From: Betaproteobacteria bacterium
GTDB lineage: Bacteria > Pseudomonadota > Gammaproteobacteria > Burkholderiales > SHXO01
Direction: 5' to 3'
Assembly (NCBI GenBank): GCA_025356655.1
Contig: JANXRW010000157.1
Location: 1-64,000, forward strand
Length of the DNA stretch: 64,000 bases
Of this stretch, positions 2,750-50,742 are shown one piece after another. Position 1 is the stretch's first letter. Each line of letters begins with the position of its first letter. Both the position numbers and the translations under genes were made by a program. Under the pieces are notes generated by a model. It had not been told where the DNA came from. It was given only the letters and a program-made list of their open reading frames with translations, and ran no database searches.

Positions 2750-3266
2750 AACATCGCTCCCTGACGCGTGCCGCGCCGCCCCAGCGGCCCGAGGGAATGG
2801 GCCGACGGCGCGAGATTGTACCCTGATTCCCGGCGACATACCGTCGCCGCGAAATCCCTGTGGCGCCCGTTGCACGGGCCTTCCAGGTCCGGGCGCTGGC
2901 ATGGATAGTGCATAATGCAGGCCAGCGAGGTGGACGCCGTTATCTCGCGCGGCCACATGCTTGCAGCGGTGACACGACGCGCGCACGCTTCGCACGCCGA
3001 CAGGCATGCCGTGGCCCCCTATCGGGGTGCAGGTACCATCGGCCCCATTGGTACCAGCAGTTCCCACAACCGGGCTACCCTTTATTTTTTTCCGGATGTT
3101 CGATGCAACTATTCCCGCCGAATCAGGCTACCGAGCTCAGCGCCGCGGCAGGCGCATGCGAAGTCGCGCATGCGATGGACATCACCAACGACACCCTCGA
3201 CTCCTCGGGGCGCGCAATTGCGCACGCGGGTGACGGTACAGGGCAGTTACGCGCCGGAGTTCCTCG
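2750..3266. other. Divergent intergenic region between galE and the GT-C gene
   Basis: No gene is recognised in these 517 bp. It should carry the promoters of both divergent units. Visible structures are a GGTACC-spacer-GGTACC repeat near 3031-3055, two copies of GCGCATGCG near 3150-3174 and a perfect 12-bp palindrome GCGCAATTGCGC near 3213-3224. None matches a regulator site I can name. Confidence 0.4.
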
Positions 3267-4523
3267 GTGATCGCCTGGATACTGAGTAACGCGAGGCGCC
3301 TCACCCCGCTACAACTGGGGCTGCTCATCGCCGGCCTTGCGCTGGCCGTGGCCGTCCGCCTTCCCTGCCTGCGCTGCACGAATCTCGATATGATCATCTG
3401 GGAGATCCCCTGGTATCGCTACATCGTCGACTACGGCACCTACCACGCCCTGGTGGACGAATACAGCAACTACCCGCCGGCCTTCATTTACCTATTGATG
3501 CTGGCCACGCACCTGAATGCCGGTTGGGTGGTGGAACTCACCGCCATCAAGATGATCTCCATCGCCTTCGACTTCGCGGCGGCGACAGTGGCCTTCCACC
3601 TCGTTGCCTTCCTGCGTCCCGCGGGCATCGCCCGCTGGGTGGCCTTCTTCGGCATCCTCCTCTCGCCGACGGTCGTCACCAACAGTTCCGTGTGGGGGCA
3701 ATCCGACGTCATCTACACAACGTTCCTGTTAGGGTTTGTTTATTTCGCCTGCAAGGACAAACCGGTGCAGGCCGTGCTGTGTTTTGGCGGCGCGTTCTGC
3801 TTCAAGCTGCAGTCCATGTGGCTCGCGCCCTTCCTGCTGCTCCTGCTGCTCAACGGGCGCGTGCGCCTGCGCCACCTCTTCCTGATACCAGGTCTCTATG
3901 TACTGCTGGCGCTGCCCCAACTCATCGCTGGCCGCGCCTGGGACAGCGTCCTACTGGTTTATATGAAGCAGGCAACCACGACGCACAGCCTAGCCCATAG
4001 CATCGCCAATCTGTATTTCCTAATGCCGGCCAATCTCTACGACCTCATGCTTCCCGTTGGCCTCGCGACCGCCGCCCTCGCAGCCCTTGCGCTGGGCGCC
4101 ACGGGATGGATGGTCGGACGGCGCCTGCGCCCGGAGGAGTTGCTGCAGGCGGCCCTGCTGTCCGCCTTCATGATGCCCAGCCTACTGCCGAAGATGCACG
4201 ACCGCTACTTTTTTAGCGCGGATTGCCTGGCGGTGGTGTTGGCCTGCGTTTTCCCGCGCTATTGGTTCGCGCCCTTGGTCATCCAGGCAGGTTCCCTGGC
4301 AGGCTACCTACCCTTCCTGCTCGGTGACCACCCACCAGCCTTCGCGCCTCTGTGGTTTACGACCCTATTCCACATCCACCGCACCGACACCCTTCTCAGC
4401 GTGCTGATCGGTCTCGGCGCCATCGGCAACTGGCTGCTGCTGGGTCTGCTGACGCTGAGTTACCTGCGCAGCGTGTTTCCACCGCGAAGCGGAACAACGA
4501 CAGCGGGGCACGCGAGGGTATAG
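3267..4523 (+). CDS. Integral-membrane GT-C family glycosyltransferase
   Basis: A 418-residue protein with 10 or more hydrophobic segments. It is probably a polyprenyl-phosphate-sugar-dependent transferase acting on the periplasmic side. After the first membrane segment comes an acidic loop (NLDMIIWEIPWY), and a W-G-Q-S-D motif follows near residue 150. Both are typical of the mannosyltransferase/DUF2029 type of GT-C enzymes. A basic region and further membrane helices make up the C-terminus. The GTG start at 3267 is supported by GGAG at 3256-3259. It is one of only two genes in the polysaccharide locus on the plus strand and converges on the WecG gene. The donor and acceptor sugars cannot be read from the sequence. 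Confidence 0.8.
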   Translation: MIAWILSNARRLTPLQLGLLIAGLALAVAVRLPCLRCTNLDMIIWEIPWYRYIVDYGTYHALVDEYSNYPPAFIYLLMLATHLNAGWVVELTAIKMISIAFDFAAATVAFHLVAFLRPAGIARWVAFFGILLSPTVVTNSSVWGQSDVIYTTFLLGFVYFACKDKPVQAVLCFGGAFCFKLQSMWLAPFLLLLLLNGRVRLRHLFLIPGLYVLLALPQLIAGRAWDSVLLVYMKQATTTHSLAHSIANLYFLMPANLYDLMLPVGLATAALAALALGATGWMVGRRLRPEELLQAALLSAFMMPSLLPKMHDRYFFSADCLAVVLACVFPRYWFAPLVIQAGSLAGYLPFLLGDHPPAFAPLWFTTLFHIHRTDTLLSVLIGLGAIGNWLLLGLLTLSYLRSVFPPRSGTTTAGHARV

Positions 4524-4582
4524 GGCGGGGGCGCTCGGACCTGGGGCGAGGGTCACAGCGCTCTTCTTGGCAGGACTAAGCC

Positions 4583-5422
4583 TTAGCGGCGGTTCTGCAG
4601 CAACTGCCAGGTCATCTTCACCAAGAAGACCGTGTTGGTGACGAAGTAGCGTCGCGCCAATCGGCGCGGTTCCGAGAACAGGCGGTGCAGCCACTCCAGA
4701 CCCAGGTTCTGAATCCACAGCGGTGCGCGACTCTTCACTCCCGCGTGGAAATCGAAGGCGGCCCCCACGCCCAGCATCAGCGCGTTGACCCGCCCGCGGT
4801 GCTGCGCCATCCAGATCTCCTGCTTCGGGCAGCCCAGGCCAACGAGCACCGCGTGGGCGCCAGAGGCGTTGATACGTTCCACTACGGCCTGGTCTTCGGC
4901 TTCCGTTAACTCACGGAACGGCGGCGAATAGGCCTCCACGATCTGCAGGCCGGGTATGCCGGCACGCAGATGCTCCTGGAGTTTGTCCAGCGTCTCGGGC
5001 GTGCTGCCATAAAGAAACACGCGCTGACCGGCTGCGGCGGCCATCTCGCAGTAATTCCACATGAGATCGGGGCCCGCCAGACGCCGCTGTCCGGGGAAGC
5101 CCAGAAGGCGCAGGGCCAAGGCGACGGGGGCGCCGTCAGGCACCGCCATATCGGCATGGTTGACCGCGTTACGAAGGGCGGCAAGCGTGGATGCGGTGAC
5201 CACCACATGCACGTTTGCAGCGCAAAGATAACGCGACTGCCGGCTCTGTGCCCACTTCCCAACCAAGGCTAGCGCCTGCTCCCAGGTGAGCGCGTCGATG
5301 AAGGTCCCCAGGACGCGTGCGCCCTGGCGAGTGCGGGTCGTTTCCATGATCCCAGCTGGCGCTCTCAGACGTTGCTCTAAGGTTTCGTGGGGCTGTTTTG
5401 TGGGCGTTGACAAGGACATCAT
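4583..5422 (-). CDS. WecG/TagA/CpsF family glycosyltransferase
   Basis: A 279-residue member of the GT26 family, which usually transfers ManNAc(A) or glucose to a lipid-linked intermediate at the cytoplasmic face. Family landmarks are ANVHVVV near residue 70, PDGAPVAL, the RLAGPDL motif, FLYGS, VGLGCPKQE and GVGAAFDFHAG, all in the usual order. The first 25 residues look non-conserved, so translation might start at the internal Met near residue 26. It follows the GT4 gene by 43 bp on the same strand. Confidence 0.92.
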   Translation of the reverse strand: MMSLSTPTKQPHETLEQRLRAPAGIMETTRTRQGARVLGTFIDALTWEQALALVGKWAQSRQSRYLCAANVHVVVTASTLAALRNAVNHADMAVPDGAPVALALRLLGFPGQRRLAGPDLMWNYCEMAAAAGQRVFLYGSTPETLDKLQEHLRAGIPGLQIVEAYSPPFRELTEAEDQAVVERINASGAHAVLVGLGCPKQEIWMAQHRGRVNALMLGVGAAFDFHAGVKSRAPLWIQNLGLEWLHRLFSEPRRLARRYFVTNTVFLVKMTWQLLQNRR

Positions 5423-5465
5423 GTGCTCGCGAGGTGCTCAACATGCAAGAAAGATACCATTGGCG

Positions 5466-6662
5466 TCACTTCTGCACTGAAGCAATCGCCTGGCGGTAGA
5501 TGGTACGCAATTGCAGGTAATTCTGATCCGGCGTGTACAGCGCTTCGTAACGCGACCGCGCCGCCCGTCCCATGTCGATTATGCGCGCGGGATTGCTACA
5601 GGCCCATTGCAACTGGCGGGCAAGGTCCTGAGCGTCGCCCGGGTTGAAGAGCAGTCCCGTGACGCCGTCCTCGACCAGTTCGGCCAGGGCCCCGATGCGC
5701 GCGGCTACCACGGGCAGCCCACAGGCAAACGCCTCGACGATGGTGCGCGGAAAGTTTTCGTACCAGATGCTCGGCAACACCAGGAAGGCTGCCGCGCGCA
5801 TGTGCTCGTAGACCGCCGCAGCGTCCATCCAGCCAAGCCAGCGGAGATTCGCCGCGGCCTTCACCTCGGGCTCCAGTGGACCGGTCCCCACGACGTCGAT
5901 GGTCTGTCCGGGCAGCGCGGCCGCAGCAGCCGCGAGCGTCGCCACGCCCTTCTCCACCGAGAGTCGCCCGACGAACAGTCCGCCGCGTCGAGCACCGCTG
6001 GGGGGCGCGGGAAGATCCACGAAATTGGGTTTCACCACCATGCGCTCAGCGGGCAAGCCGCCTTGGATGAACTTCGCACGGCAGAATTCATTGAGGGCGA
6101 TGTAGCGGGCCACGTGCTTGCGATAGGTGCCCAGCGCCCGGTGAAGGACTTGGTTGGAGGCAAGGACTGCGGACTGGGCGGTGGAATCCCGGTAACAACG
6201 CCGGGCGACGGCGCGCCAGGGCAAACGGCCCAGGCAATCCTCGCACACCGCGCCTTGCCGCAGGAACATGGCTTGGGCGCAAAACAAGCGGAAATTGTGC
6301 AGGGTCTGCACGACGGGGACCCCCCGACGCGCCGCGGCCCAGTAAAGTGATGCCGAGATGAGCGGGAAGGTGTTGTGCACGTGGATGACTTGGGGCCGGT
6401 AGGCCTCCAGCAAGGCATCGAGTTCGCGCGCGGTGCGTGAGGACCAAAGGGTATCGCGCGCGGCAGCAAACCGCGGCATCCCCGCGAGATCGTCATTGTG
6501 TCGGGTGTAGGTCTCAACCGCGTGGCCGCGCTCGCGCAGGAGAGCCACCTCAGAGGCAACGACAGCGTCCTCGCCGCCACGTTGCTGATAGTAGTTGTGC
6601 ACGACCAGCACACGTTCTGGAGGGCCTTCCTGCCTCAAGTCAGGCGCGGCAGGGAGGTTCAT
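5466..6662 (-). CDS. GT4 family glycosyltransferase
   Basis: A retaining GT-B enzyme of 398 residues that should add one sugar to the repeat unit in the cytoplasm. The N-terminal domain has the glycine-rich YYQQRGGED loop. The middle holds a cysteine-containing stretch (CEDCLG, then RRCYRD) often seen in this subgroup. The C-terminal domain has GRLSVEKG and the E-x7-E motif ENFPRTIVE followed by ACGLPVVA. The ATG at 6662 is the family start. It lies after the glycoside hydrolase, separated by a strong hairpin. Confidence 0.92.
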   Translation of the reverse strand: MNLPAAPDLRQEGPPERVLVVHNYYQQRGGEDAVVASEVALLRERGHAVETYTRHNDDLAGMPRFAAARDTLWSSRTARELDALLEAYRPQVIHVHNTFPLISASLYWAAARRGVPVVQTLHNFRLFCAQAMFLRQGAVCEDCLGRLPWRAVARRCYRDSTAQSAVLASNQVLHRALGTYRKHVARYIALNEFCRAKFIQGGLPAERMVVKPNFVDLPAPPSGARRGGLFVGRLSVEKGVATLAAAAAALPGQTIDVVGTGPLEPEVKAAANLRWLGWMDAAAVYEHMRAAAFLVLPSIWYENFPRTIVEAFACGLPVVAARIGALAELVEDGVTGLLFNPGDAQDLARQLQWACSNPARIIDMGRAARSRYEALYTPDQNYLQLRTIYRQAIASVQK

Positions 6663-6757
6663 GGTCTGAGACTCCAGGTGAGGCGCGCGGCGCGGCCGGT
6701 GGAGGCAACCCAGGTGCGACGACGCATGCCCGAACCCACGGGGGGCCTAGACGCCCG

Positions 6758-6803
6758 GACGCCGGCACGGCCAGCCCCCGTCGGGGGCCGCCGTGCCGGC
6801 GTC
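6758..6803. terminator. Strong GC hairpin between glycoside hydrolase and GT4 genes
   Basis: Perfect 14-bp arms (GACGCCGGCACGGC at 6758-6771 pairing with 6790-6803) enclose a second C-run/G-run stem. It lies 26 bp after the stop of the glycoside hydrolase on the minus strand. No T-tract follows, so it is better seen as an attenuator or mRNA-stability element than as a classical intrinsic terminator. Confidence 0.55.
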
Positions 6804-6828
6804 CGCTCCTGGCAAGCGGTTGTACGGA

Positions 6829-8430
6829 TCAGCGGGCCCAGTCAGCACCCCAGGCGGAGGTATCGGTCTTCACCAGCACCGGGTAGCGGCCGATCGGCAC
6901 GCCACTGCCCTTCGCGCTCAAGTGCGTAACCCCGGGGGTGTAGATGGTCTCGTACTCAACGGCGTCCGGAGACACGAAGCTCGCTGCGGTGTTGACGCCT
7001 TTGGTGCCCGCAGTGTCATTGACCTGCCAGACAACCCAGGCCACGCGACCGGTGCGTTCTAGTTTGCAGGCGAAGGTCACGTTGTCATTGGTTTTGCAAC
7101 CGTCGATGGTGGCGTCCTTCATCCAACGTGCCATTTGGATCCACGCCTGGCCCGGCCGGGTGGGGTTTCCGTCCTGGCCGATCATGCCGGCCTCGGGTCG
7201 GTCGAAGCGGTGGTAGAACACCCGTTCGATGCCCAGGGACGCGGCGATGAGGAGGTAGCGCGCGGTGCGGATTCCCACCTCGTCGGTGTTCGCCACCACT
7301 TCCTGCCAGCCGTTGTAGGCGCCGGTGTTATTCGTGGTGTAGGCGAATTCCGTCATCCAGGAGCCCTTGGTTGCGGGCTTGAGCGGACCATTGGCAGCAC
7401 CACCATTCGCCACCGTTTCGGTGAAGTTGCGCACCCACGTCACCTGCCGCTTGTAGTAGTCGAACAGGTCCTCAGGCGGGTTGGCATAGGCGTGGAAGGC
7501 CACCACGGAGTGGGACTTCTGCGCCACCGGATCCAGCATGTACAGTTTCATTCGCCCCAAGTCCCCGGTGAAACCCGGTGAGAGCAATTGATCGGTGGGA
7601 TCCACGGCGCTCAATGCCTTGTGCGCCGCAGCGGTCATCTGGATCAGCGCGGCCTTGCTGCCGGTAAAGTAACCCTTGCCGCCACCGGGGATGTCGGTGA
7701 AGGTGGGCTCGTTCCATATTTCGTAGTACTTGATCTTGCCCACGTAACGAGAAGCCACGTTGGTGACATAGGCGGAGAAATCGGCCAGGGTGTGGGGCTC
7801 CGCCGCGGCGCCGAAACCGTAGACGAATCGCTCCTTGGGTCGGGCCGAGGCCCAGGTGGGCGTCACGCCAAAGGTGTAGAGCATCTCGACGTCGTGTTCC
7901 ACGGCGTCATTGACCATGATGTCGAGCTTGGAGAAGTCCCAGGTGGCGCGCTTCACGGGGCTTCCCTGGAGATGTTCCCAGGTCGTGCCACTGTCCCAGG
8001 TCCGCCAACTCCCGATCGGAACGGTGGAGGGCCACTTGGCGAGCTTGTCGGCGTAGTGGATATGAACACCGAAGAAGCGTTTGCTCACCGGTCCGACGGG
8101 CTTATCGGTAAAGGTGAAGCTCGATGCCAGCACCTGCGGCAGGCCCTTACTGGGAGGGGGGGGCGGCGTAGGCGTGCTGGCCGCACTCGCCTTGGGTGGC
8201 GGCGGGGGCGTGGGCGTCGACGCGGCAGCGGGTGCTGCCGGTGCGGGTGCGGGCGGAGGGGTCGGTGTGGCAGCAGCCGGCTTAGCCGGCGCTGGTTTCA
8301 CGCCAGGCGGGGGCTTGTCCGAAAAATTGATGGTGCCGTCAGGGCTGACCCACTTGTACAGCATGGCTTCGGCATTCCCTGACAGGAAGATCACCCCGGT
8401 TAGCAGGGACAAGAATACGGTACGTTTCAT
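6829..8430 (-). CDS. Secreted clan-A glycoside hydrolase (GH39/PslG-like) with DUF4124 N-terminus
   Basis: A 533-residue exported enzyme likely to cut or edit the polysaccharide made by this locus in the periplasm or outside. A signal peptide spans residues 1-22. A DUF4124 motif follows at 23-42 (LYKWVSPDG...FSDKPPPG), then a Pro/Ala/Thr-rich linker at 43-97, then a TIM-barrel-like domain from about 100 to 450. The putative acid/base is Glu241 in YYEIWNEP, and the putative nucleophile is Glu361 in WMTEFAY. These spacings fit clan GH-A enzymes such as GH39. The C-terminal 80 residues look beta-rich. Assignment to GH39 rather than GH5 or GH30 is inferred, and the substrate is unknown. Confidence 0.8.
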   Translation of the reverse strand: MKRTVFLSLLTGVIFLSGNAEAMLYKWVSPDGTINFSDKPPPGVKPAPAKPAAATPTPPPAPAPAAPAAASTPTPPPPPKASAASTPTPPPPPSKGLPQVLASSFTFTDKPVGPVSKRFFGVHIHYADKLAKWPSTVPIGSWRTWDSGTTWEHLQGSPVKRATWDFSKLDIMVNDAVEHDVEMLYTFGVTPTWASARPKERFVYGFGAAAEPHTLADFSAYVTNVASRYVGKIKYYEIWNEPTFTDIPGGGKGYFTGSKAALIQMTAAAHKALSAVDPTDQLLSPGFTGDLGRMKLYMLDPVAQKSHSVVAFHAYANPPEDLFDYYKRQVTWVRNFTETVANGGAANGPLKPATKGSWMTEFAYTTNNTGAYNGWQEVVANTDEVGIRTARYLLIAASLGIERVFYHRFDRPEAGMIGQDGNPTRPGQAWIQMARWMKDATIDGCKTNDNVTFACKLERTGRVAWVVWQVNDTAGTKGVNTAASFVSPDAVEYETIYTPGVTHLSAKGSGVPIGRYPVLVKTDTSAWGADWAR

Positions 8431-8714
8431 GGCAGATTAACCTCCTCATCGCTGTCGGCGCGCGCCCCATTCAGCGCTCGAACTTTGCTGACCGGCCCGC
8501 AGCGTCCTAGGCGAGGTTTTAACGAAAGTTGCTTCTCGACCGGAACAAGCCGCTGTTATTTTATTGACCCCCCGCGATCCAGCGTCCACCCACGCCAGCC
8601 GGTGCATCCAGCTCCCTTGGCGCGGCGACGAATCGGACGGGGTCCTGCTTCGTGCGGCTTTGGTGACACATGCTGCAAGTTCCGTACCCGGCTGGGCCTG
8701 GCCCCCGCGGGGGT
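8431..8714. other. Intergenic region upstream of the glycoside hydrolase
   Basis: These 284 bp separate the hydrolase start from the stop of a GT4 gene on the same strand. AGGAGG lies just upstream of the hydrolase ATG (seen as cctcct near 8441-8446). I see no gene and no convincing promoter or terminator in the rest. Confidence 0.4.
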
Positions 8715-9860
8715 TTAACCGGTCAAGAACGCCGCCAAGCGCCCCGCCACCTTTGGCTCATCGAATGCTTCCCTGAAGCGGCTGCGCGCATTTGCGCTCA
8801 TACGCGCTCTTAGGGTGTCGTCCTCCAGCAATTCGATCAGGTAGCGCGCCGCGGCCTCAGCGTCATCGAGCGGCCAGAAGAACCCTTCCACGCCATCGGA
8901 GAACACCTCCGGGATTCCCCCCACGGGCGCCGCCAGCAGGGGTAGGCCGTAGGATAGCGCCTCGAGCAGCACGATACCCTGGCTCTCCATGCGTGCAGCA
9001 TGAGCGTACACCCGATGGGTTTCCAGCAGCGAGGCCGCGTGCAGCACGCGCCCGAGGAAGCGGACCTGTCCGGCCAGACCTAACCGGGCGCACAACCCCT
9101 CGAGCGTGGCGCGATCGGGTCCATCGCCCACCAGGGTGAGACTATATTGCCGCCCGGAGGCCTTGGCCGCGGCCAGTACGCGCAGCAGGTAGGCTTGGTT
9201 CTTCCGGGGCTCGAGTGTACCAATGCTGATGAGATCGGCGGCTTGGCGGGCGTCCATGGGTTGCGACTCCGCCTGCGGCGCACGCACAAAATTGGGAATC
9301 ACCGCTGACGGGACTTGAGCAAGCGCGGGTATGCGCTCCTGCAGTCGTTCCCGCATAAAGGCCGACACGTAGACCAGTGCGTCAAGCCGCGGCAGGACCT
9401 GTGCCTCCAGGGCCTGGATCCCGCGGTAGAGGGTTCCTCCTGGGGCGATCTTGCCTTTCTCCGCCCACTCATCGGCCTGGGAGACATTGAAATGCACGAC
9501 CATGCACACGCGCTGCTGCGCCGAGCGTCGGGCGCGCAGAGCAGCCGCGGCGGAGAGCGGACACTGCGCATAGATCACCTCATCCCCGCGCAGGCGAAGC
9601 CGCAGGGCGGCCCACAATAGCAGCGCGTGCCAGAAGCGGTACCACCAGACGCTTGCCGGACCGGAGAGCCGGTCGAGGACTCGCCGCACGCCAAAAGTTG
9701 GAACGACCAGGGCCCTGGGAAGGTCGAAGGGTGTCACTACACGGCAATGATCGCCGCGCGCCGCCAAGTACGCTGCGAAGGCATTAAAGTGGGTCTGCAC
9801 CCCAGTCTCGCCTTCAGGACGCATGATCGTCGCCACGATCACCGGCGTTGTGCGCGCCAT
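8715..9860 (-). CDS. GT4 family glycosyltransferase, paralogue A
   Basis: A 381-residue GT-B transferase. The N-terminus ends in GETGVQTHFN, matching the DTGVQTHFN of the paralogue at 13245-14486. The C-terminal domain has SIGTLEPRKNQ, GRVLHAASLLE and the E-x7-E motif ESQGIVLLE, followed by PVGGIPEVFSDGVEG. The start at 9860 overlaps the preceding GT2 stop by one base (TGATG), which indicates translational coupling. A 111-bp stretch (8958-9068) is almost identical to 13578-13688 in the paralogue, although the rest has diverged. Confidence 0.92.
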   Translation of the reverse strand: MARTTPVIVATIMRPEGETGVQTHFNAFAAYLAARGDHCRVVTPFDLPRALVVPTFGVRRVLDRLSGPASVWWYRFWHALLLWAALRLRLRGDEVIYAQCPLSAAAALRARRSAQQRVCMVVHFNVSQADEWAEKGKIAPGGTLYRGIQALEAQVLPRLDALVYVSAFMRERLQERIPALAQVPSAVIPNFVRAPQAESQPMDARQAADLISIGTLEPRKNQAYLLRVLAAAKASGRQYSLTLVGDGPDRATLEGLCARLGLAGQVRFLGRVLHAASLLETHRVYAHAARMESQGIVLLEALSYGLPLLAAPVGGIPEVFSDGVEGFFWPLDDAEAAARYLIELLEDDTLRARMSANARSRFREAFDEPKVAGRLAAFLTG

Positions 9861-10747
9861 CAGGAACCCTGCGCGGACTTGTGGGCCCGGCTCGGGAAGA
9901 TGCGCCGCGTGGTGAGCAGAACCTTCAGGTAGGGCCAGGCCCACACGAGTGGCCAGAGTGCGCCGGCGTGACGCCGCACGAGGAGCGCCCAAGGCCCCGG
10001 CGGCAGGCCCTTGCGGTGCACGAGTTTGCGCCAGCGCACCGCCAGTGGCAGCTCCCGATCGTGCATGGTGTTAGTAAGGGGATTGTGCGAGCAGGTCCCC
10101 ACGTAGCCTGGCATGACCCAGCAGCCAAGGCCGGCGCGGGTGACGCGTAGGCCATAGTCAAAATCACCCAGCCCGTGCACGAAGCCCTCGTCGATGTTGC
10201 CGATGGCGCGCGCGAGCGCGGCGCTAATGAGCACGCAGTTTCCGTTCACCGTATCGCAGCGCTGCGGCTCGCTCCCGGGCATGACCTTGAGAAAACGCAT
10301 GGGGCGCAGCGCGCTACCGCGTCGCTGCCCACCGTAGGTCAGTGCGCCGGTGCGCTCGTCGCGTGTGCTGCCCACGACAAGAACCCCACGCACGGCGTCG
10401 GGCAAATTCCGCGCGGTACGCACGAGACTGGAGATGGCACCGGCGTCGAGGATGGTGTCGTCGTTTAACCAGAGGTAGAAGTCGAAGCCCTGAGCAAGCG
10501 CATGGCCGAAGGCCTTGCGCATGCCGCCGGCCCAGAACAGGGATCCGTCGCCCGACAGGATCTCGGTTTGCGGGAACTGCAAGCGCACCGCTTCGGCAGT
10601 CCCATCGGTGCTCCCATCATCGACCAGGATCACCTGCAAGCCGAGGCCGGGTTCCAGGGACGCCTCGCGCAGCGCGCCCAGGCAGCGCAGCGTGATGTCA
10701 CGGCGATTGTGGCAGCTCAGCAGGACGGCGATACGCGTGGCGCTCAT
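9860..10747 (-). CDS. GT2 family glycosyltransferase
   Basis: A 295-residue inverting GT-A enzyme similar to rhamnosyl- or galactosyltransferases of surface polysaccharides. It starts with the LLSCHNRRD nucleotide-binding strand, has VDDGSTDGT near residue 43 and a metal-binding DxD-like LWLNDDT near residue 95, then a GLGDFDYGLRVTRAG acceptor-side motif. The start at 10747 overlaps the polymerase stop by four bases (ATGA). Its own stop overlaps the next GT4 start. Confidence 0.92.
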   Translation of the reverse strand: MSATRIAVLLSCHNRRDITLRCLGALREASLEPGLGLQVILVDDGSTDGTAEAVRLQFPQTEILSGDGSLFWAGGMRKAFGHALAQGFDFYLWLNDDTILDAGAISSLVRTARNLPDAVRGVLVVGSTRDERTGALTYGGQRRGSALRPMRFLKVMPGSEPQRCDTVNGNCVLISAALARAIGNIDEGFVHGLGDFDYGLRVTRAGLGCWVMPGYVGTCSHNPLTNTMHDRELPLAVRWRKLVHRKGLPPGPWALLVRRHAGALWPLVWAWPYLKVLLTTRRIFPSRAHKSAQGS

Positions 10748-12060
10748 GCGGGAGCCACCCGGCCGCGACGCCCCGCTCGGCGCATCAACAACGGCCGACA
10801 AAGGGCGCCCGCCAAGCCCAGCCAGACGCCCTGCTGTGGTGGCAGGCCGTAGGTTATGGAGAACACCAGTTGTATGGCCAGCATCACGATGAGCAGGTCC
10901 GCTTCGGCCCCGAGTTCCTCCCGGGCGCCCCTCAACAGGCGCCGAAAGCTCCAAACGAAGTAGGCGAGCCAAGCCAACAACCCGAGGATTCCCATGTGCT
11001 GCAGCCGTTGGAGGTAGTCGTTGTGCACGCTGAAGGTCTGGCGCGCGCCGGTATCGAAGTGCAGTTCGTAGCTGCTGCCGAAGGGTTTGCCGATCACCTG
11101 GTAGATGGGACCCGCCTTGGCGTACTCGGTCATGAAACTACCCCAACTGCCCACGCGCGCGCCGAAGGTTCCACCCGAGGTGGCCGAACCCGCTTCGGCG
11201 GTCTTGGAGATTTCCTGGGCCACCTGCTCGCCCTTACCCGAACTGAGGAAGGGCAAGGCGACGGAGGCGGCCAAAACCGCCACCGCACCGGCGGTAGCCA
11301 GGAGTTTTCCGCGGCCCCCGCGCGCGCGGCCGAAGACGAGAAATATGCCAAGCACCGTGCACAGCCACACGGTGCGCTGCTGCGCTCCGATGATGGTGGC
11401 GAGCAGCACGGGGAAAAAGAAAATCCAGCCGCGCGCCCCCACGCCCCGGGTGAAGGCGAAGAGAATGACCGCGAGCCCTTGACCCAGCATGAGGGCGTAG
11501 GTACCCGGCAGCACTCGGCCCTTGATACCGGTGTTGTCGAGCCAGGCGTAGTCGTCGATGTCCAGCAGCATGTTGGTCCAGCGGTAGACGCACAGGCCCA
11601 CGAGCAGGACGGCGCCCACGAGCCAGATGTTGGCCGCGCGGCGCACAAAGCCGCGGTCCACGTCGAAGGTAAGGAAGTAGTAGATGGTGATGGCCAAGTA
11701 GAAGGCCCCGCGCGCTTCCATGGCGCCGCCCACGCCGCTTTGCGCCACGCCGATCACCAGGCTCAACACCATCATGAAGAAGAAGCCCATCATGGGCCAG
11801 GGAATCCGCGCGAGCGCGCCGCGGCGCAGGCTGCGCATCCCGGCGCCCCCGAGGATCAGGCCGTAGAACACGTCACTCATGTGCACCGTGAGGCCAAGGC
11901 GCATGGCGGGCAGATCCGGAAAACAGGCATACAGGAACGCATCGGCGACGACAATAATCAGGCCCACCTCGGCATAGAGGGACGTCAGCCCAATCAGTAC
12001 CCACACGGCGATCGCTAGCCCCACGGCGACGCTCAGTGTTATTCCTATCGCCTCGTACAC
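10744..12060 (-). CDS. O-antigen ligase/polymerase-like membrane protein (Wzy type)
   Basis: A 438-residue polytopic protein with about 10-12 membrane segments. A large soluble loop around residues 290-345 contains the SVHNDYLQRLQHMGILGL signature of the Wzy_C/O-antigen ligase family. In a Wzx/Wzy-type locus it most likely polymerises repeat units in the periplasm. Because exosortase loci also carry O-glycosylation ligases of this superfamily, transfer of glycan to protein is the main alternative. It sits between two glycosyltransferases, with 11 bp to the upstream gene. Confidence 0.85.
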   Translation of the reverse strand: MYEAIGITLSVAVGLAIAVWVLIGLTSLYAEVGLIIVVADAFLYACFPDLPAMRLGLTVHMSDVFYGLILGGAGMRSLRRGALARIPWPMMGFFFMMVLSLVIGVAQSGVGGAMEARGAFYLAITIYYFLTFDVDRGFVRRAANIWLVGAVLLVGLCVYRWTNMLLDIDDYAWLDNTGIKGRVLPGTYALMLGQGLAVILFAFTRGVGARGWIFFFPVLLATIIGAQQRTVWLCTVLGIFLVFGRARGGRGKLLATAGAVAVLAASVALPFLSSGKGEQVAQEISKTAEAGSATSGGTFGARVGSWGSFMTEYAKAGPIYQVIGKPFGSSYELHFDTGARQTFSVHNDYLQRLQHMGILGLLAWLAYFVWSFRRLLRGAREELGAEADLLIVMLAIQLVFSITYGLPPQQGVWLGLAGALCRPLLMRRAGRRGRVAPA

Positions 12061-12071
12061 GGGTGGCGCCC

Positions 12072-13208
12072 CTAGCGGCCGACGACGGCGGAGGGCGCAC
12101 GTGCCTGCCCAGCCGCGGCCCGCTCGTATAAGTGTGTATAAGCGCGCGCGCCCTGCTCGATGCCAAACATCTCGCGTGTGCGCACGGCGTTGGCCTCCAG
12201 GGGCTCGGCGAGCGAGCCCGCGGGCCGCGCCATCAAGTCCTCCAGAGCGGCGCGGATGCTGACCGAATCGATTCCAGTGTACCAGACCCGCAGCCCATAT
12301 TGGCGGAAGTCCTTGAGCCCGGGACAGTCGGCAAATACGCAGGGCACGCCACAGGCCAGGGCCTCGGCAGCAGCGATACCAAAACCCTCGTAGATGGAGG
12401 GCATGACGTAGGCATCAGCGGCAAAGAAGAGTTCGCGCACGTCCATGACCGGGCCCAGGAAGCGCACGCTGGACTCCAGGCGCAACGCGCGGGCCGCGGC
12501 CAATTCCTCCCGCCCGGGTGTCTCCGTGCCCGCGTGCAGGTAAAGAAAGGGCTTCCCCGCGGGAAGCGCGCCTAGCGCGTCGACGAGCGCGCCGTGATTC
12601 TTCACGGCCGAACAGTTGCCCACGGAGAGCACAACGAAGCGCTCGTCAGCGCCCAGGACCGCCTGCCGCGCCGCGGCACGTTCTTGCGCCGTGGGCAGGC
12701 GAAACCGATGACTGTCGTACCAGTTGTTGACCACCTCGGAGGCACAGCCGAAGCGCTGGCTTTCGTTGTCCTTGACCGAGGGGCTGATGGCAACGCCCAG
12801 GACACCCAAGCGCCCCAGCAGGCGCCTCTCAAAACCGCGCACCCGGCGCAGCAGGCCCTCGAAGGGGTAGGCATTGTGGAAGGTTCGCAGAGCGCCCACT
12901 CGGCCGGTGGAGAGGATCGTGAGCCCGATCCAAAAGTTGGCGCGCTCCGTGTGGCTGTGGACCACGTCGCAACCGGAGTCCAGGATGAGCCGGCGCAGCG
13001 CCAAAAAGAACGCGGGGGATTTCCTGAAGGGCAGGTGTAGCACGCGGTAGCCCGCGCGCTCCAGTTCCGGGGCGAAAATGCCGGGTTGCGCGCCCGTGGC
13101 AAGGATAGTCCCCTCAACGCCCAGTGCCGTGAACTCCGTCGCTGCAGAGCGCAACATCACCTCGGCGCCCGAGGGCTTTAATTCGTTCAGTATGTGCAGC
13201 ACACGCAT
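12072..13208 (-). CDS. GT4 family glycosyltransferase
   Basis: A 378-residue GT-B transferase. The N-terminus MRVLHILNELKPSGAEVML is typical of GT4 enzymes of capsule and EPS loci. HSHTERANFW lies near residue 85, VGNCSAVKNH in the donor domain, and the E-x7-E motif EGFGIAAAE before ACGVPCVFAD. It is followed 11 bp later by the polymerase and preceded by a 36-bp gap after the paralogue B gene. Confidence 0.92.
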   Translation of the reverse strand: MRVLHILNELKPSGAEVMLRSAATEFTALGVEGTILATGAQPGIFAPELERAGYRVLHLPFRKSPAFFLALRRLILDSGCDVVHSHTERANFWIGLTILSTGRVGALRTFHNAYPFEGLLRRVRGFERRLLGRLGVLGVAISPSVKDNESQRFGCASEVVNNWYDSHRFRLPTAQERAAARQAVLGADERFVVLSVGNCSAVKNHGALVDALGALPAGKPFLYLHAGTETPGREELAAARALRLESSVRFLGPVMDVRELFFAADAYVMPSIYEGFGIAAAEALACGVPCVFADCPGLKDFRQYGLRVWYTGIDSVSIRAALEDLMARPAGSLAEPLEANAVRTREMFGIEQGARAYTHLYERAAAGQARAPSAVVGR

Positions 13209-13244
13209 GGGGAAGTTCCGTATTCCGGCAGCAAGGACCGTCGC

Positions 13245-14486
13245 CTAGCAAGCATTGACCGTTCCGGCCGCTGACGCGGCGCAACGGGGTGGGGACCCGA
13301 ACTCGGCTCCGAGTTTTGGCTCGGCCTCGTCGCGCACATCGAACAACGCCTGGAGCCAGCGCGGCCCAAGCAAATCGGGCCGGTATCGTTCCTCATAGCG
13401 CCGACGCGCAGCCGCACTGGCCTGCGCATAGATCTGCTCAGACTCCAGCAAGGCGATCAACCGGTCCGCCGCGCCGGAGACGTCCTCGAGATCCCAGGAG
13501 AAGCCCTCGACGCCGTCGGTGAAGGTCTCCGGGATCCCGCCCACCGCAGCTGCCAGCACGGGGCGGGCACTACGCAACGCCTCGAGCAGCACGATACCCT
13601 GGCTCTCCATGCGTGCGGCATGGGCGTACACCCGATGGGTTTCCAGCAGCGAGGCCGCGTGCGGCACGCGCCCGAGGAAGCGGACCTGGGCAGTCACGCC
13701 CAGCCGCTCGGCGAGTGCCCGGAACGCCCCCTCGCTCGGCCCGCTGCCGGCTAGTGTCAAGCTGTAGACATGGCCGCGCACGCGCGCCTGCGCCAGCACC
13801 TCGATCAAGAACCCCTGGTTCTTGCGCGGCTCCAAAGTGCCGATGGAGAGGATGTCGCCAGTGGGTGCATCGGGTCCCGCCGCAGGGACGGGCTGGGGCA
13901 GGTTGGAAACCACCCGGGCGGGCACCGCAGCCACACCCGGAACCCGGCGCAGTACCTCGGCGCGCAGAAACTCCGTGGGAAAGAGCAGCGCGTCTACCCG
14001 TGGCAGGACGGCGCGCTCCTGCTCGAGCAACCGGCGATGGAGCCTGCCGCCCTCGCGCGTGAGCCCAGCGAGCGATGCCTCCCAGGCCTCGGAAATGTTG
14101 AAGTGACAGATCGCAACCAGCCGGAAGTCGTAACCCTCATCGCGAAGCGCAAGCGCGGCCCGCGCCGAGAGCGGGTCCTGAGCGTAGAGCACCACCGCCT
14201 GCGCGCGACGCCGGCGCAACTCGGCCCGCAGCAGGCGCTCGAGGCAATACCGGTGGACCCCCCGGTGCCAGAGGACGCTCGACTCCCGGTCCAATCTGCG
14301 CAGCACCCGGGTGACAAGGTTGGCCGCACGCCGTCGCCAAGTGCGATCATCCTGCGCGCTCAGCACACCCACAGCCACGCCCTGTGAACGGGCGTAGTCG
14401 CCAAAGACGTTGAAGTGCGTCTGCACGCCCGTGTCACCCTGGGCCAGCAACTGGGTCAGCACCAGAATGGCGCGCGGCGCGCTCAT
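13245..14486 (-). CDS. GT4 family glycosyltransferase, paralogue B
   Basis: A 413-residue GT-B enzyme related to the gene at 8715-9860. Both share TGVQTHFN near the N-terminus, a SIGTLEPRKNQ motif, a GRVPHAASLLETHRVY segment and the ESQGIVLLE E-x7-E motif. The ATG at 14486 overlaps the flippase stop by four bases (ATGA); the open frame upstream belongs to the overlapping gene. The C-terminal 40 residues are not shared with paralogue A. Confidence 0.92.
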   Translation of the reverse strand: MSAPRAILVLTQLLAQGDTGVQTHFNVFGDYARSQGVAVGVLSAQDDRTWRRRAANLVTRVLRRLDRESSVLWHRGVHRYCLERLLRAELRRRRAQAVVLYAQDPLSARAALALRDEGYDFRLVAICHFNISEAWEASLAGLTREGGRLHRRLLEQERAVLPRVDALLFPTEFLRAEVLRRVPGVAAVPARVVSNLPQPVPAAGPDAPTGDILSIGTLEPRKNQGFLIEVLAQARVRGHVYSLTLAGSGPSEGAFRALAERLGVTAQVRFLGRVPHAASLLETHRVYAHAARMESQGIVLLEALRSARPVLAAAVGGIPETFTDGVEGFSWDLEDVSGAADRLIALLESEQIYAQASAAARRRYEERYRPDLLGPRWLQALFDVRDEAEPKLGAEFGSPPRCAASAAGTVNAC

Positions 14487-16027
14487 GGGACGGCCCCGGG
14501 GACGGCGAGCATGGGCTTCAAGAACCCCGGCAGCCGCCCCTGTAGCTTGCCCAGCAGCCAGCCAATGCTGCCGCCCAGGATTTGCCGGCGCAGCAAGAAC
14601 GCCCCCGCCGCCCACCCCGCGCCGCCGCAAAGTCCCGCAAGGGCGAGTCGAGCCACGGGGGGCACAGCGTGCGCAGTAGCCAGGGCGTCGAGCAGCCGCA
14701 CGACGGCGGCGCAGCCAAGGGCCAGAAGGATTCCCAAGCGCAAGGCCTGCCACAGCTCGGTCCAGCGCGCCTGCACCAAGTAGAGGGCCACGCCAGCCAC
14801 AAGGATGAAGCGCAGCAGGAAAACCAGGACCAGGGTCCAGGAGAGCGCGAGCAAAGAGTAGAGGCTAGCCAAGCACAGCGCCAGGATCATGATCACGGCG
14901 ATAAGGGCCTGCCGATAGAGTTCGCGCTCGACCCGCCCGGTCCCCATGGACAGGGGACCCGTGGCGGCGAGCAGTCCATTCAGGGGCATGGCGATGGCAA
15001 GCGGCACGAGCAGCGGTACCGCCGCGCGCCATTTCTCACCGTAGAGTCCGAGGACCACCGTCTCGGGTACGGCCGCCAGCACCAGATAGGGTGGCAGCAG
15101 GAGCAGCCCGATCACCCCCACGGAGGCCAGGTAACAGCGCCGCAGTCCCTCTACATCGCCCTGGGCTCGGGCGTAGGCGGGAAACAGCACGGCCTGGAGG
15201 TTGGACATGAAGGCGTTCATGGGTGTGTTCACCAGCTGCAACGCCCGGTTATACAGCCCGAGATCCGAGGCGCCAAAGGCACGTCCCACCACCGCCGTGT
15301 CCGTATTACTGATGGTGAAATTCGCCAGATTGCTCAGCGTGACGTTGGAACCGAAGCGGAAGAATCCAGCCTGCTGCGCGCTGAAACACGGGCGAAGGGC
15401 GTGAGGCGAGGCCCGGTACAGGAGCGCCAAGTTCAGCACCGACTGCGCGACGGCGGCGCCCACCAAGCTCCAGACGCCAAAATCCAGGTAGGCCAGGGGC
15501 ACGCCGAGGCCAAGGAATCCCGCCAAGTAAGAAAACACCTGTGCCGTCTGAATTGCCCGGAAGTTGAGCGCACGGCGCAGCAGACTGGCCGGCACTTGGC
15601 TCATGGCCTGGAAGATGAACAGCACGGCCAGCGCACGGAGCACAGGCACGGCGTCCGGACGACGAAAGAAAGCGGCAATGAGCGGGGCTGTAGCGACGAC
15701 GCCCAAAAAGAGCAAGGTTCCCATGCCCACCAGCAAGGTGAAGACGAACCGCACGTCGCGCTCGTGGATGTCCTTACGCTGGACCAGGGCGCTGCCGAAG
15801 CCAAGGTCAGCGATCAGACCGCCGAAGCCCACCACCACCCAGGCGATAGCCACCAAGCCGAAGGGTTCCGGCCCTAGTAGCCGGGCAAGCACGATGCCAA
15901 TCACCAGTTGCGAGAGCACCCGCACCAGCGCCCCCATGTAGTTCCACTTGAGCGCGGAGAAGCTGCGCTCTGCCAAGCTGGGCCCTGGCCGAGGTTCGGG
16001 GCGGCGGTCTGAGGGGAGGCCCATCAT
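14483..16027 (-). CDS. Wzx-like polysaccharide flippase (MVF/WzxC type)
   Basis: A 514-residue integral membrane protein with about 12-14 hydrophobic segments, expected to flip lipid-linked repeat units across the inner membrane. The N-terminus (LAERSFSALKWNYMGALVRVLSQ, then VLARLLGPEPFGLVA) and an acidic/aromatic loop near SNVTLSNLANFTISNTDTAVVGR match the WzxC/lipopolysaccharide exporter family. Two consecutive ATGs at 16027 and 16024 are the likely starts, 14 bp after fcl. Upstream in-frame sequence overlaps fcl and has no family resemblance. Confidence 0.9.
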   Translation of the reverse strand: MMGLPSDRRPEPRPGPSLAERSFSALKWNYMGALVRVLSQLVIGIVLARLLGPEPFGLVAIAWVVVGFGGLIADLGFGSALVQRKDIHERDVRFVFTLLVGMGTLLFLGVVATAPLIAAFFRRPDAVPVLRALAVLFIFQAMSQVPASLLRRALNFRAIQTAQVFSYLAGFLGLGVPLAYLDFGVWSLVGAAVAQSVLNLALLYRASPHALRPCFSAQQAGFFRFGSNVTLSNLANFTISNTDTAVVGRAFGASDLGLYNRALQLVNTPMNAFMSNLQAVLFPAYARAQGDVEGLRRCYLASVGVIGLLLLPPYLVLAAVPETVVLGLYGEKWRAAVPLLVPLAIAMPLNGLLAATGPLSMGTGRVERELYRQALIAVIMILALCLASLYSLLALSWTLVLVFLLRFILVAGVALYLVQARWTELWQALRLGILLALGCAAVVRLLDALATAHAVPPVARLALAGLCGGAGWAAGAFLLRRQILGGSIGWLLGKLQGRLPGFLKPMLAVPGAVP

Positions 16028-16040
16028 CGGCTGCGCGGCC

Positions 16041-17024
16041 TCAGGCCGGAGCGGGCACCGCGTTGGGCCCCGCGGGGACCCGGGACAGGAAGTCCGCGTA
16101 GGCGCGCGCAACCCCCTCGTGAAGTTCCACTTTGGCGCTCCAGCCCAGTTCGCGCATGCGCGAGACATCGAGCAGTTTGCGCGGCGTCCCGTCGGGCTTG
16201 CTCGCATCGAAGGCGAGTTCACCCCGGAAGCCCACGACATCCATAACCAAGTGAGCTAGTTCACGGATGGTCACGTCGGTGCCCGTACCCACGTTGTAGA
16301 GCCCCTCGCCCACGCCCATCTCCATGAGGCGCACACAGGCGTCCGCCAGGTCGTCCACGTAGAGGAACTCGCGGCGGGGAGACCCCGTTCCCCAAATGGG
16401 GAAGGTGGCGTCCGCACGCTCCCGGGCCTCGTGTGCCTTGCGGATCAGCGCAGGGAGCACGTGGCTGCTGCTCAGGTCGTAGTTGTCGTTAGGCCCGTAG
16501 AGGTTGGTCGGCATCACCGAAGCGAAGTGAGTCCCGTATTGGCGGTTGAGCGACTCACAAAGCTTAATGCCGGCGATCTTGGCAATGGCGTAGGGCTCGT
16601 TCGTCGGCTCGAGCGGACCCGTGAGGAGGTACTCCTCGCGGATGGGCTGCGGGCAGTCGCGCGGATAGATACAGCTCGAGCCCAGAAAGAGGAGACCCGT
16701 CACGCCGCTCAATCGGGCGGCGTGGATGACGTTCCCCTGCAGCGTGAGGTTCTGGTAGATGAAATCCCCGCGCGCGGTGTTGTTCGCCTGGATGCCGCCC
16801 ACCTTGGCGGCGGCCAGGAACACGTAGTCGGGCTTTTCGGTGTCGAAGAACCGGGCCACGGCCGCTTGGTCGAGCAGGTCGAGTTGCGCACGCGAACGCA
16901 CGAGGACGCGCCCGTACCCGGCCGCCTGCAGGCGGCGGCAGATGGCCGAGCCGACCATGCCCCGGTGTCCGGCGACAAAAATCCTGGCATCAAAGCCCAG
17001 TTGGAAAGCGCGCGCAGCGGTCAT
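16041..17024 (-). CDS. fcl: GDP-L-fucose synthase
   Basis: Converts GDP-4-keto-6-deoxymannose to GDP-L-fucose, so the polymer probably contains fucose. The 327-residue protein has the NADP-binding GHRGMVG loop near residue 19, the LAAAKVGGI motif, the SSCIYP catalytic Ser/Cys region, and the YxxxK pair in [21 protein letters not shown] and REFLYVDD also match Fcl/WcaG. The partner enzyme GDP-mannose 4,6-dehydratase (gmd) is not in the window and must lie elsewhere. Confidence 0.95.
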
Positions 17025-17050
17025 GGAGAAATCCTCGAGCCTAGGGACGA

Positions 17051-17743
17051 TCAGAGGGTACCGGTGAAGCGCTTACGGTCCCGCTCGGGAACGACGGCCA
17101 GCATGGCGTTGATGAATTCATCATGGTTGCGGTAGGCCACGGCCGTGTCGCGCTCCAGACTGGAGACCCGGATGAGCATCCCGTCGGTCACCTGACCGGT
17201 GAGCTTATTCACGATGACGGCGACCTTGCGGCGAAATCCCGTGCTGACCGCATTCTCACCAACGGTGATCCAGTAGCTGATCGGCTCGACCCGGCTGCCC
17301 ACACGCGCCACCATGCGCTTGACCGGGATGAAACCGAAGGGGCTCTGCACCTTCTGCCACTCGATTTTGTTGACCTCGAAGCCCTGCGCTGGATAGCACG
17401 TCTCCGGCCGGTGGATATTCATGGCGGAATCGATATGCCCGGTATAGGCGATGGAGAGCATGATCCGCTCGCCCTTGTGATTGACGAACGTGCGGGTGAG
17501 CAACTGCTCGTAGATGTGCTTCAACTCCGCCGCCACGTCCCCGGCGGGGCGCAGGGGGGACACGGAAGGGTCGACCTTCCAGTCACCGAAGGCCTCAGGG
17601 ACATCGTCGCCGAGCACGAATTGGTGCGCAGTAGCCGCGCCCTCAATGGGCGCGTGCAGGTGGCGCGAGAGGCCAAAGGCCGTTCCCATGCTGAGCAACA
17701 TGCAGAGCCCGAAGAGGGCGTGCGGGAGACTAAGTTGCGGCAT
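17051..17743 (-). CDS. epsI: Exosortase-associated protein EpsI
   Basis: A 230-residue membrane-anchored periplasmic protein of the EpsI family (DUF3485). One hydrophobic segment near residues 6-25 is followed by a soluble domain. Diagnostic motifs are FGDWKVD, the [14 protein letters not shown] segment with its conserved Cys, and YWITVGE. It overlaps the end of xrtB by 14 bp. The Met at 17743 fits the signal anchor best. In other species EpsI-type proteins are fused to or next to exosortases; their exact role in sorting or EPS export is unsettled. Confidence 0.93.
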
Positions 17744-18629
17744 CGGCTTTCTCCGGACGAGGGGCGGCTGGGAAGAATTTGCCAAGCAGGGTATCCATCA
17801 GGAAGAACAGGCCCATGGCCACCGCGAAGAGCACCATGCCGGCAAATTCGTGGAGGAAGCCCTGCCCGGCAGCATCGCCAAGGTGGTAGGTGATGAGCAC
17901 CAACGCCATGACCCGCAGCGAGTTGGCGAGGAAGGTGATGGGCAGCACACTCGCCATGAGCAGCACGCTGCGAACCCAGTTGCCGTGCTTCATGAGGTAG
18001 ATGTAGAGCAGCCCGAGGGCCGTCAGCGAGTAGAGCGAGCGCTCGCCCGAACAGGCATCCGCCACGAGTAACTGGTAGTTGCCGATGCTCAGCGTCACCC
18101 CGGAGCGTGCGATCGGGTAACCCAGGCGATAGAGCACTTGCTCCACCGCCACGGAAATGCCTTCCTTCAGCGAACTGGTCAGTCCTTCCAGGATGAAACC
18201 CGGCAAGGGCACGGTGAACAGCAAGAAAAGGAACACGATCCAGAGCTTGCGCGCCACCGGGAAACCGACCAGCCCGACCACCAGGCCCGCGAGTACCGGC
18301 ACCACGGAGCCGAGTTTGAAGATCTCGACGTTGGCCGCCACACCCATGACGTAGACGATGGCACCGAAGGCGAAGAACAGACCGCCCCATACCGGCGAGG
18401 GGCGGTCGTCGGATTGCAGGAGGAGGCTACGATTGGTCCAGAGGATCCACCCGCACACGGCCAGTACCACAGGGGCGTGCGTGTCGGAGTCGCCCGACCA
18501 GAAGTTCTTCGCCGCGTGGAAATACACCGGAGCGTACATCGCGATAAACCCGAAAAACACCGGGAGCCAGCGGATCAGATCCTGCGGCATGCTACGAACG
18601 GGGGCGCTGCCAGGCATCACGTCGGACAT
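17730..18629 (-). CDS. xrtB: Exosortase B (XrtB)
   Basis: A 299-residue, eight-helix membrane transpeptidase-like enzyme that cleaves PEP-CTERM sorting signals. The expected catalytic triad is present: Cys193 in DACSGER, Arg239 in NSLRV and His260 in LHEFAG. The epsG-xrtB-epsI gene order is that of the Methylobacillus methanolan locus, where this gene is epsH. The recognisable substrate in this window is the protein at 47374-48198. The gene is 75 bp after epsG on the same strand. Confidence 0.95.
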   Translation of the reverse strand: MSDVMPGSAPVRSMPQDLIRWLPVFFGFIAMYAPVYFHAAKNFWSGDSDTHAPVVLAVCGWILWTNRSLLLQSDDRPSPVWGGLFFAFGAIVYVMGVAANVEIFKLGSVVPVLAGLVVGLVGFPVARKLWIVFLFLLFTVPLPGFILEGLTSSLKEGISVAVEQVLYRLGYPIARSGVTLSIGNYQLLVADACSGERSLYSLTALGLLYIYLMKHGNWVRSVLLMASVLPITFLANSLRVMALVLITYHLGDAAGQGFLHEFAGMVLFAVAMGLFFLMDTLLGKFFPAAPRPEKADAAT

Positions 18630-18704
18630 GCCACGCTTCCTCTTTGGTCCTGGTCCGCCCGGGCGGCCGCTAGGCGAGCGCGGGCGCCCAGGCGCTGGCT
18701 GAGA

Positions 18705-19598
18705 TCAAAAATCATTGGTGATGGCCCCGACGACTTTGGCCCCGGCGTGTTCCACGTTTTCCAGGAGGAGCCGGGCGTCGCGGGTGCGAGTGTGCGCCTG
18801 CCGAGTGACCAGGAGTGCGCCACCGACCACGCCGGCAACGCGCTGCGCGTCAGCGCTCTCCACACCGGCGGGCGTATCATAGAGTATTACCTCGAAGCGC
18901 GACGCAAAAGCCTCGGCCAACTGGGCGAAGGCCGGCCGCTCCAAGAGTTCCTGGGGATTGGGCGGGACCGGACCGGCAGTGATCACGGACAGGTCCACCA
19001 AGCCGTGGATCTTCTGCACCGCCTCGGCCGATCGCCCCGAGAGCAGCGTCGACAGCCCTACGCGGTTGTCGATTCCGAAGACCTTATGCTGCCGAGAGTT
19101 GCGCAGGTCGCAATCCACCAGCAGCGTGCGCTGTCCCAATTGTGAGAAAACCACGGCAAGATTTGCCGCGGTGTAGCTCTTGCCATCCCCACGGCGGGGG
19201 CTAACGATAGCCAGACCCCGGTGGGGGGGCACGGCGCGGAACCAGCGCAACTGCAGTTGGGTGCGCAGACCGCGCAGCGCCTCCACTTGGGGCGTGAAGG
19301 GCTGGTAGGCCGCGATCACCTCCGGGCTGAAGCCGCCTTCCCCGGGCAGCAGGTAGGGATAGTCGAACTGTTCGGCTAGTGCCCGCTGAACGTCGGCCTC
19401 GGTGAGGAGCCCCAAGCTGATGGCGGCCTCGCCAAAGCGGACGCCCTTCAGGTTCTGCAGCTCGGCGATCCGGTCCACGTCCTCCTGGCGCAGCGTGCCG
19501 CGCTCGATGAGAAGGCGACCCAAGCGCCGCTCGGGGACGTCGTTCATGTTGACCACTGCCTGGGCCACGCCCCGCAGTTCCGCAGACGACAATTGCAT
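18705..19598 (-). CDS. epsG: Chain-length tyrosine-kinase-like ATPase EpsG
   Basis: The cytoplasmic kinase half of a split Wzc system, working with EpsF. The 297 residues start with a GspE-N/MshEN-like helical domain (about 25-85, LGRLLIERGTL and FGEAAISLGLL). The BY-kinase domain follows: Walker A PRRGDGKS at 134-141, Walker A' VDCDLR at 161-166 and Walker B ILYDTPAG at 238-245. No C-terminal tyrosine cluster is visible, so autophosphorylation may differ from Wzc. I chose the Met at 19598 because AAGGAG lies six bases upstream; a Met at 19613 is possible. Confidence 0.93.
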   Translation of the reverse strand: MQLSSAELRGVAQAVVNMNDVPERRLGRLLIERGTLRQEDVDRIAELQNLKGVRFGEAAISLGLLTEADVQRALAEQFDYPYLLPGEGGFSPEVIAAYQPFTPQVEALRGLRTQLQLRWFRAVPPHRGLAIVSPRRGDGKSYTAANLAVVFSQLGQRTLLVDCDLRNSRQHKVFGIDNRVGLSTLLSGRSAEAVQKIHGLVDLSVITAGPVPPNPQELLERPAFAQLAEAFASRFEVILYDTPAGVESADAQRVAGVVGGALLVTRQAHTRTRDARLLLENVEHAGAKVVGAITNDF

Positions 19599-19615
19599 CG
19601 GGTTCTCCTTCATGA

Positions 19616-50362: not shown

Positions 50363-50742
50363 CGGCTGTACTCGGTCCCGTCGGCGCCCTGGCCCGGTGC
50401 GCCGCTGTGCACGTCGTAGACTTCCCCCTTGACCGAGGAGTCCGGGGGGGGCAAGACCTGCCAGGAAGTGTCCGTCTCCGTGAAAGGATCCTTCGGCACG
50501 CGGCGCAAGTAGCGCTGGGTCACGAGTTCCTCCAGAGAGGCCGGATAGCGGCCGCGATCCCCGTAGTACTTGTCGATGGCATCGCGCAACACCGCCAGGT
50601 CCTCGCGCAGCACCGCCTCGCGGGCCCGGTCCACGTGGGCGAAGTAGCGCGGAACGGCGATGGTGAGCAGGATCGCGATGATGGCCATCACCACGAGCAG
50701 TTCGATCAGGGTAAAGCCGCGGCGGCGCAAGGGCGTCACCAC
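50356..50742 (-). CDS. GspG/PulG-type pseudopilin (second)
   Basis: A 128-residue pseudopilin with a standard prepilin site, RRG-FTLIELLVVMAIIAIL, and a short globular domain ending in DPFTETDTSWQV...YDVHSG. The YYGDRGRYPASLEEL segment matches the GspG fold. Two adjacent GTG codons (50742 and 50739) can serve as start; the second makes a GTGA overlap with the upstream stop, the pattern used at other junctions of the operon. Confidence 0.9.
   Translation of the reverse strand: MVTPLRRRGFTLIELLVVMAIIAILLTIAVPRYFAHVDRAREAVLREDLAVLRDAIDKYYGDRGRYPASLEELVTQRYLRRVPKDPFTETDTSWQVLPPPDSSVKGEVYDVHSGAPGQGADGTEYSRW

Follow-up and report, generated by a model that had tools for sequence, protein, structure and literature searches.

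The stretch of DNA analysed here, called the window, comprises 64,000 nucleotides (nt) of contig JANXRW010000157.1 (assembly GCA_025356655.1) from a Betaproteobacteria bacterium and carries two genes of glycosyltransferase family 4 (GT4), A and B, that share a short tract of nearly identical DNA. Gene A (8715..9860, minus strand; Pfam PF00534, E 2.3e-33, and PF13439) encodes a GT4-family glycosyltransferase of the GT-B fold, and gene B (13245..14486, minus strand; PF00534, E 1.3e-26), an old paralogue of A, encodes another member of the family. Their PF00534 scores of 115.6 and 93.6 bits compare with a gathering score of 26.4, and neither protein reaches the cut-off of any listed NCBIfam equivalog. 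As read from the sequence, A probably starts at the ATG at 9860, with a one-base overlap with the stop of a glycosyltransferase family 2 (GT2) gene, and B probably starts at the ATG at 14486, overlapping the stop of a flippase gene. The source is one contig of a 165-contig genome bin that is 68.6% complete, and the locus is a single case.

Direct comparison of 8958..9068 in gene A with 13578..13688 in gene B gave 108/111 identical bases, exactly as a first-pass annotation of the window had described, down to the three differing sites (8997/13617, 9003/13623, and 9043/13663). Both copies fall in frame 0 of their minus-strand genes, in direct orientation within the same operon, with a start-to-start distance of 4,620 bases; the copy in A makes up 37 codons (residues 265-301 of 381). 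The longest exact runs between them are 25, 39, and 39 bases. On the coding strand all three differences are C in B and T in A; two are silent, and one is a replacement, Leu in A versus Pro in B. A search of 4000-20000 for direct repeats of 30 nt or more found the tract and no other; across the whole window, three repeat families reach 40 nt or more, and the tract is by far the strongest of them. Searching the genome bin gave no third copy at E <= 0.001, and neither the repeat search of the region nor the bin search found the tract in the third GT4 gene of the operon (12072..13208).

The rest of the two genes is far less alike, in keeping with the earlier description of the flanks as clearly diverged: in the codon alignment, A and B share 36/37 residues inside the tract and 140/340 outside. 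Where the residue is shared (Met and Trp left out), the codons are identical at 33/35 positions inside versus 60/138 outside (Fisher p 1.9e-8). When silent states were shuffled, the observed best fragment was reached in 2, 0, and 0 of 20,000 shuffles with mismatch penalties of 1, 2, and 4, respectively. Fully conserved protein blocks elsewhere in A and B show few identical codons (TGVQTHFN, 3/8; SIGTLEPRKNQ, 3/11; YSLTL, 0/5; DGVEGF, 2/6; VGGIPE is higher, with 4/6), and therefore the identity of the tract is not simply the residue of a conserved motif. Outside the tract, the DNA of A and B is only about half identical, and a count over all aligned codons that takes in the tract gives a nucleotide identity of 0.545; going down from 8942, the first 20 codons reach about 75%. 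The sliding-window comparison of the two genes proposed in the first-pass annotation was run, and high identity proved to be confined to the tract: the best 37-codon window has an identity of 0.97 versus the pair mean of 0.545, and similar identity over the full gene length, named there as an outcome that would speak against conversion, is thus not what we see. This excess of 0.43 is by far the largest of the 253 pairs formed by 23 family members, the second largest being 0.27, and no exchange as strong as that of A and B was found in the other pairs. In one other genome, two members of the family (L054 and L050, at G1321:C1:3318000-3339101) lie about 20 kb from each other; this pair has no shared tract (best 37-codon window, 0.64 versus 0.54 overall).

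Homologues for the phylogenetic analysis came from a contig scan (4 loci, one of which was dropped as too short) and from searches of whole genomes with the family alignment. Left out before tree building were L036 (34% identity over 140 residues), the weak matches L004-L032, and L041-L043 (loci identical to L033-L035); L046-L048 were retrieved but not analysed. On a backbone of six homologues, both tract copies were placed best with L035 but without significance, and therefore further homologues were sought. Outside the tract, B forms a clade with L035 at 100% ultrafast bootstrap, and A stands elsewhere, beside L033 and its allies, with 62% support. Three trees were then compared in IQ-TREE, one without transfer, one with A moved to B, and one with B moved to A. 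Inside the tract, the tree without transfer is 25.4 log-likelihood (lnL) units worse than the best tree and has p values in the approximately unbiased (AU) test of 0.0017 (LG), 0.0019 (WAG), and 0.0019 (JTT). Outside the tract, both transfer trees are 48-60 lnL units worse, and both are rejected. Of 19 sliding windows of 37 codons, the four that clearly favour transfer overlap the tract (+9.9 to +16.1, B to A); the remaining 15 range from -11.5 to +0.4. The profile is that of a transplanted segment, short and sharply bounded. Elsewhere in their sequence, A and B belong to old lineages separate from each other, and the tract has a tree of its own, as a transfer predicts. The silent-site identity and the conflicting tract tree together bear out the earlier reading of gene conversion in the broad sense, that is, the transfer itself irrespective of its mechanism, and in this sense we hold it with considerable confidence. 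We call the event recent solely by comparison with the remainder of the two genes; the copies have two silent differences and one replacement.

The direction is weakly resolved, with B to A the better choice. Inside the tract, the B-to-A tree beats the A-to-B tree by 2.7 (LG), 3.2 (WAG), and 2.8 (JTT) lnL units. Furthermore, A reads YAHAARMES in the tract, as does the B-side relative L035, whereas L033, on the A side, has YIHSAKMEN; immediately past the end of the tract, A again agrees with L033, both reading SYGLP. The GC content at third codon positions (30/37 in A and 32/37 in B inside the tract; 258/345 and 305/377 outside) does not decide the direction. Taken together, we consider B the more likely donor and A the more likely recipient, and a transfer from B to A probable. 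In our model, gene B, whose copy lies 4.6 kb upstream, would have supplied the corresponding stretch to replace about 111 bases of gene A, or slightly less, in what we infer to be a single, non-reciprocal event, and the two silent changes and the Leu/Pro difference would have arisen after the transfer.

Several points weigh against this model. The A-to-B tree is not rejected (AU p of 0.151, 0.148, and 0.141 under LG, WAG, and JTT). L050 and L061 match the tract at 19/37 and 20/37 residues, versus 21/37 for L035, and because neither is a B-side relative, this weakens the case for the direction. The patch may also lie inside a longer conversion that has since eroded. Finally, the locus is known from one contig of the incomplete bin.

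The tract contains both glutamates of the E-x7-E motif (E292 and E300 in A), which agrees with the first-pass annotation, and H287, E292, and E300 are invariant in 23 sequences. An AlphaFold model was made for A and not for B; it has a mean predicted local distance difference test (pLDDT) score of 94.4 and is closest to BshA structures (Foldseek E 2e-20). In this model, the tract forms the strand 266-270, the helix 275-281, the strand 282-287, the loop with E292, and most of the helix 296-303 with E300. It lies in the C-terminal (donor-sugar) domain and, by homology, probably forms part of the donor-sugar site, so A would now carry B's version of that part. It is imaginable, and in our view rather doubtful, that a single short-patch, microhomology-anchored event moved a donor-site module into an old paralogue far too diverged for RecA conversion and thereby changed the sugar donor of A. 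If true, the polymers of exopolysaccharide operons could evolve by swapping modules among their GT4 genes without gain or loss of genes.

Explanations that need no transfer between A and B account poorly for these data. Selection alone, through conserved catalytic codons or some other constraint on the DNA, could be invoked for a stretch that covers the E-x7-E motif, but at the tract position the 21 homologues have only 50-69 of the 111 bases in common with A and 48-72 with B, and equally conserved blocks of the A/B pair are not codon-identical; we attach next to no weight to this explanation. On these counts (48-72/111 bases at most), the idea that the catalytic motif is under deep constraint was rejected. 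Nor is the tract equally conserved in these 21 homologues; its presence at equal divergence in distant orthologues was the other outcome that had been named as contrary to conversion. A second copy created in silico, by a misjoin or by mixing of consensus sequences, might be suspected in a genome assembled as 165 contigs at 68.6% completeness. Such an error would have to make two chimeric joins in a space of 111 bases, where no exact run exceeds 39 bases, and the copies are separated by three differences and sit in uninterrupted frames with family-typical flanks on both sides; an assembly or binning artefact is therefore unlikely, in our estimate very much so. Similarly improbable is that both genes took the tract from a third source, be it another paralogue or incoming DNA. 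The bin is incomplete and incoming DNA is conceivable, but the bin holds no third copy at the threshold given above, and the tract of B goes best with L035 (for the tract, without significance), as does the rest of B, so that no outside source is needed.

Given a transfer, two mechanisms remain to be weighed. In RecA-dependent ectopic conversion, A and B would have paired over a longer, locally more similar region, and B (or A) would have been copied. In its favour, the two genes point the same way at a distance of 4,620 bp, codons conserved around the C-terminal domain raise the local identity to the roughly 75% noted from 8942, and gene conversion in bacteria is well known for near-identical pairs such as the tuf genes (PMC5485169). 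On the other hand, according to a study on Bacillus subtilis transformation (PMC6382021), RecA strand exchange extends to about 15% divergence, and microhomology-anchored illegitimate events are proposed beyond it; the present identity of A and B (0.545 overall) is far below what this limit implies, but the genes may have been more alike locally when the event took place. We regard RecA-dependent conversion as a substantial possibility that falls short of an even chance. The other mechanism, whose prospects we see as approaching an even chance, is a short-patch replacement anchored on microhomologies, resembling short-patch double illegitimate recombination (SPDIR), or a template switch, from B to A. 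Short matches within conserved codons may then have held the strands together in place of long RecA-paired homology, and homology-facilitated illegitimate recombination, SPDIR, and template switching during replication may all be candidates. The 111-base tract with abrupt ends in otherwise about half-identical DNA fits such an event, and short-patch double illegitimate recombination was reportedly described by Harms et al. in 2016. A short-patch event, which would rest on microhomology to the recipient at both ends, is putative here; the nearest relatives are about half identical. Because the genes are far diverged and the tract is short and abrupt, we consider a short-patch event about as likely as ordinary conversion.

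A crossover between the two tract copies would remove 4,620 bp, which confirms the earlier figure of about 4.6 kb, and the predicted deletion leaves an in-frame hybrid of 383 codons with the 5' part of B and the 3' part of A. Lost would be the genes between the copies, all on the minus strand: the third GT4 gene (12072..13208; PF00534, E 6.7e-22), a gene for a Wzy-type polymerase/ligase (10744..12060; PF04932 Wzy_C, E 3.5e-8), and the GT2 open reading frame (9860..10972; PF00535, E 1.6e-12). Upstream of B lies a Wzx-like flippase of the MOP family (14483..16240, minus strand; NCBIfam NF007773, 221 bits, below the cut-off of 273), and the operon context includes exosortase B (XrtB; 17730..18629, minus strand; TIGR03113, 295 bits, above the cut-off of 275). 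Starts and stops of neighbouring genes overlap, as read from the sequence, and the genes belong to an exopolysaccharide operon that also holds EpsI type B and EpsF (NCBIfam). A and B resemble the GT4 enzymes of XrtB exopolysaccharide loci in the GT-B fold, the E-x7-E motif, and the company of XrtB, EpsI type B, and EpsF; they differ in scoring under every listed NCBIfam equivalog cut-off.

Also in the window, 6829-8430 (minus strand) encodes a protein of 533 residues that has a DUF4124 match (E 8.5e-6) at its N terminus and a linker rich in proline and alanine; no further Pfam or NCBIfam match was found for it, and it may be a secreted, glycoside-hydrolase-type protein of the operon. A 29%-identical relative adjoins the A-family gene at L033. 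At L035, positions 1788-11377 correspond to 8715-17024 of the window, with flippase, GT4, polymerase, GT2, A/B-family GT4, and fcl in nearly the same order and at 31-61% protein identity. L035 belongs to a metagenome-assembled genome labelled Actinomycetota (Kmv33); the similarity suggests transfer of the polysaccharide cassette across phyla, or else misbinning of the L035 contig. Elsewhere in the window, three 40-nt repeats (50680-50719, 51156-51195, and 59326-59365) are 70-85% alike. On the minus strand, the first encodes GFTLIELLVVMAI, which by eye we take to be a type IV prepilin-like cleavage motif, and the three repeats are probably part of ordinary pseudopilin genes.

The GT4 family to which A and B belong is patchily distributed. 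At strict cut-offs, it occurs in 2/399 genomes of the order and 1/398 of the phylum, the window's own genome counted in both; across the class (369), order (399), and phylum (398) samples, only G650, in the order sample, has it beyond the window's own genome. Among relatives of G650, the family was found in 1/199 genomes, and among those of four other holders in 3/197, 6/117, 7/121, and 4/119; these samples include the centre genomes and may overlap. Some GT4 match at E <= 0.001 is present in 57/60 relatives, the best outside the own genome having E 2.6e-25 and 31% identity. In the three genomes of the same genus, the best match has E 3.2e-14. The samples of the class, order, and phylum and the set of 60 relatives overlap. 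No homologues were found on plasmids (E <= 1e-30) or in viral contigs.

In sum, the short exchange seen in A and B is a clean case with strong statistics, between bacterial paralogues whose divergence is well beyond that usually studied for gene conversion, and it takes in the catalytic donor site of a polysaccharide enzyme. If it is repeated in other operons, the specificity of glycosyltransferases may be recombinable in small modules; being one case from a single metagenome bin, it serves as a good example and not a new principle. In the open-licence literature searched, we found no report describing glycosyltransferase paralogues that underwent conversion within a bacterial polysaccharide operon; this is not proof of absence. 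The closest parallels are the conversion of tufA and tufB (PMC5485169) and of pilE and pilS (PMC10745880), in both of which a tract is replaced non-reciprocally by a paralogue of the same genome. The tuf copies are nearly identical and homogenised along the gene, whereas A and B share 41% of residues outside the tract; the pilE/pilS system is programmed and draws on silent cassettes, and nothing like that is seen around A and B. In homology-facilitated illegitimate recombination (PMC6382021), and in short-patch double illegitimate recombination, short segments of heterologous or homeologous DNA likewise replace resident DNA, anchored on short matches; the A/B event differs in being inferred from one sequence and not from an experiment. 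Set beside these systems, the tract in A and B is a known type of event in an unusually diverged pair.

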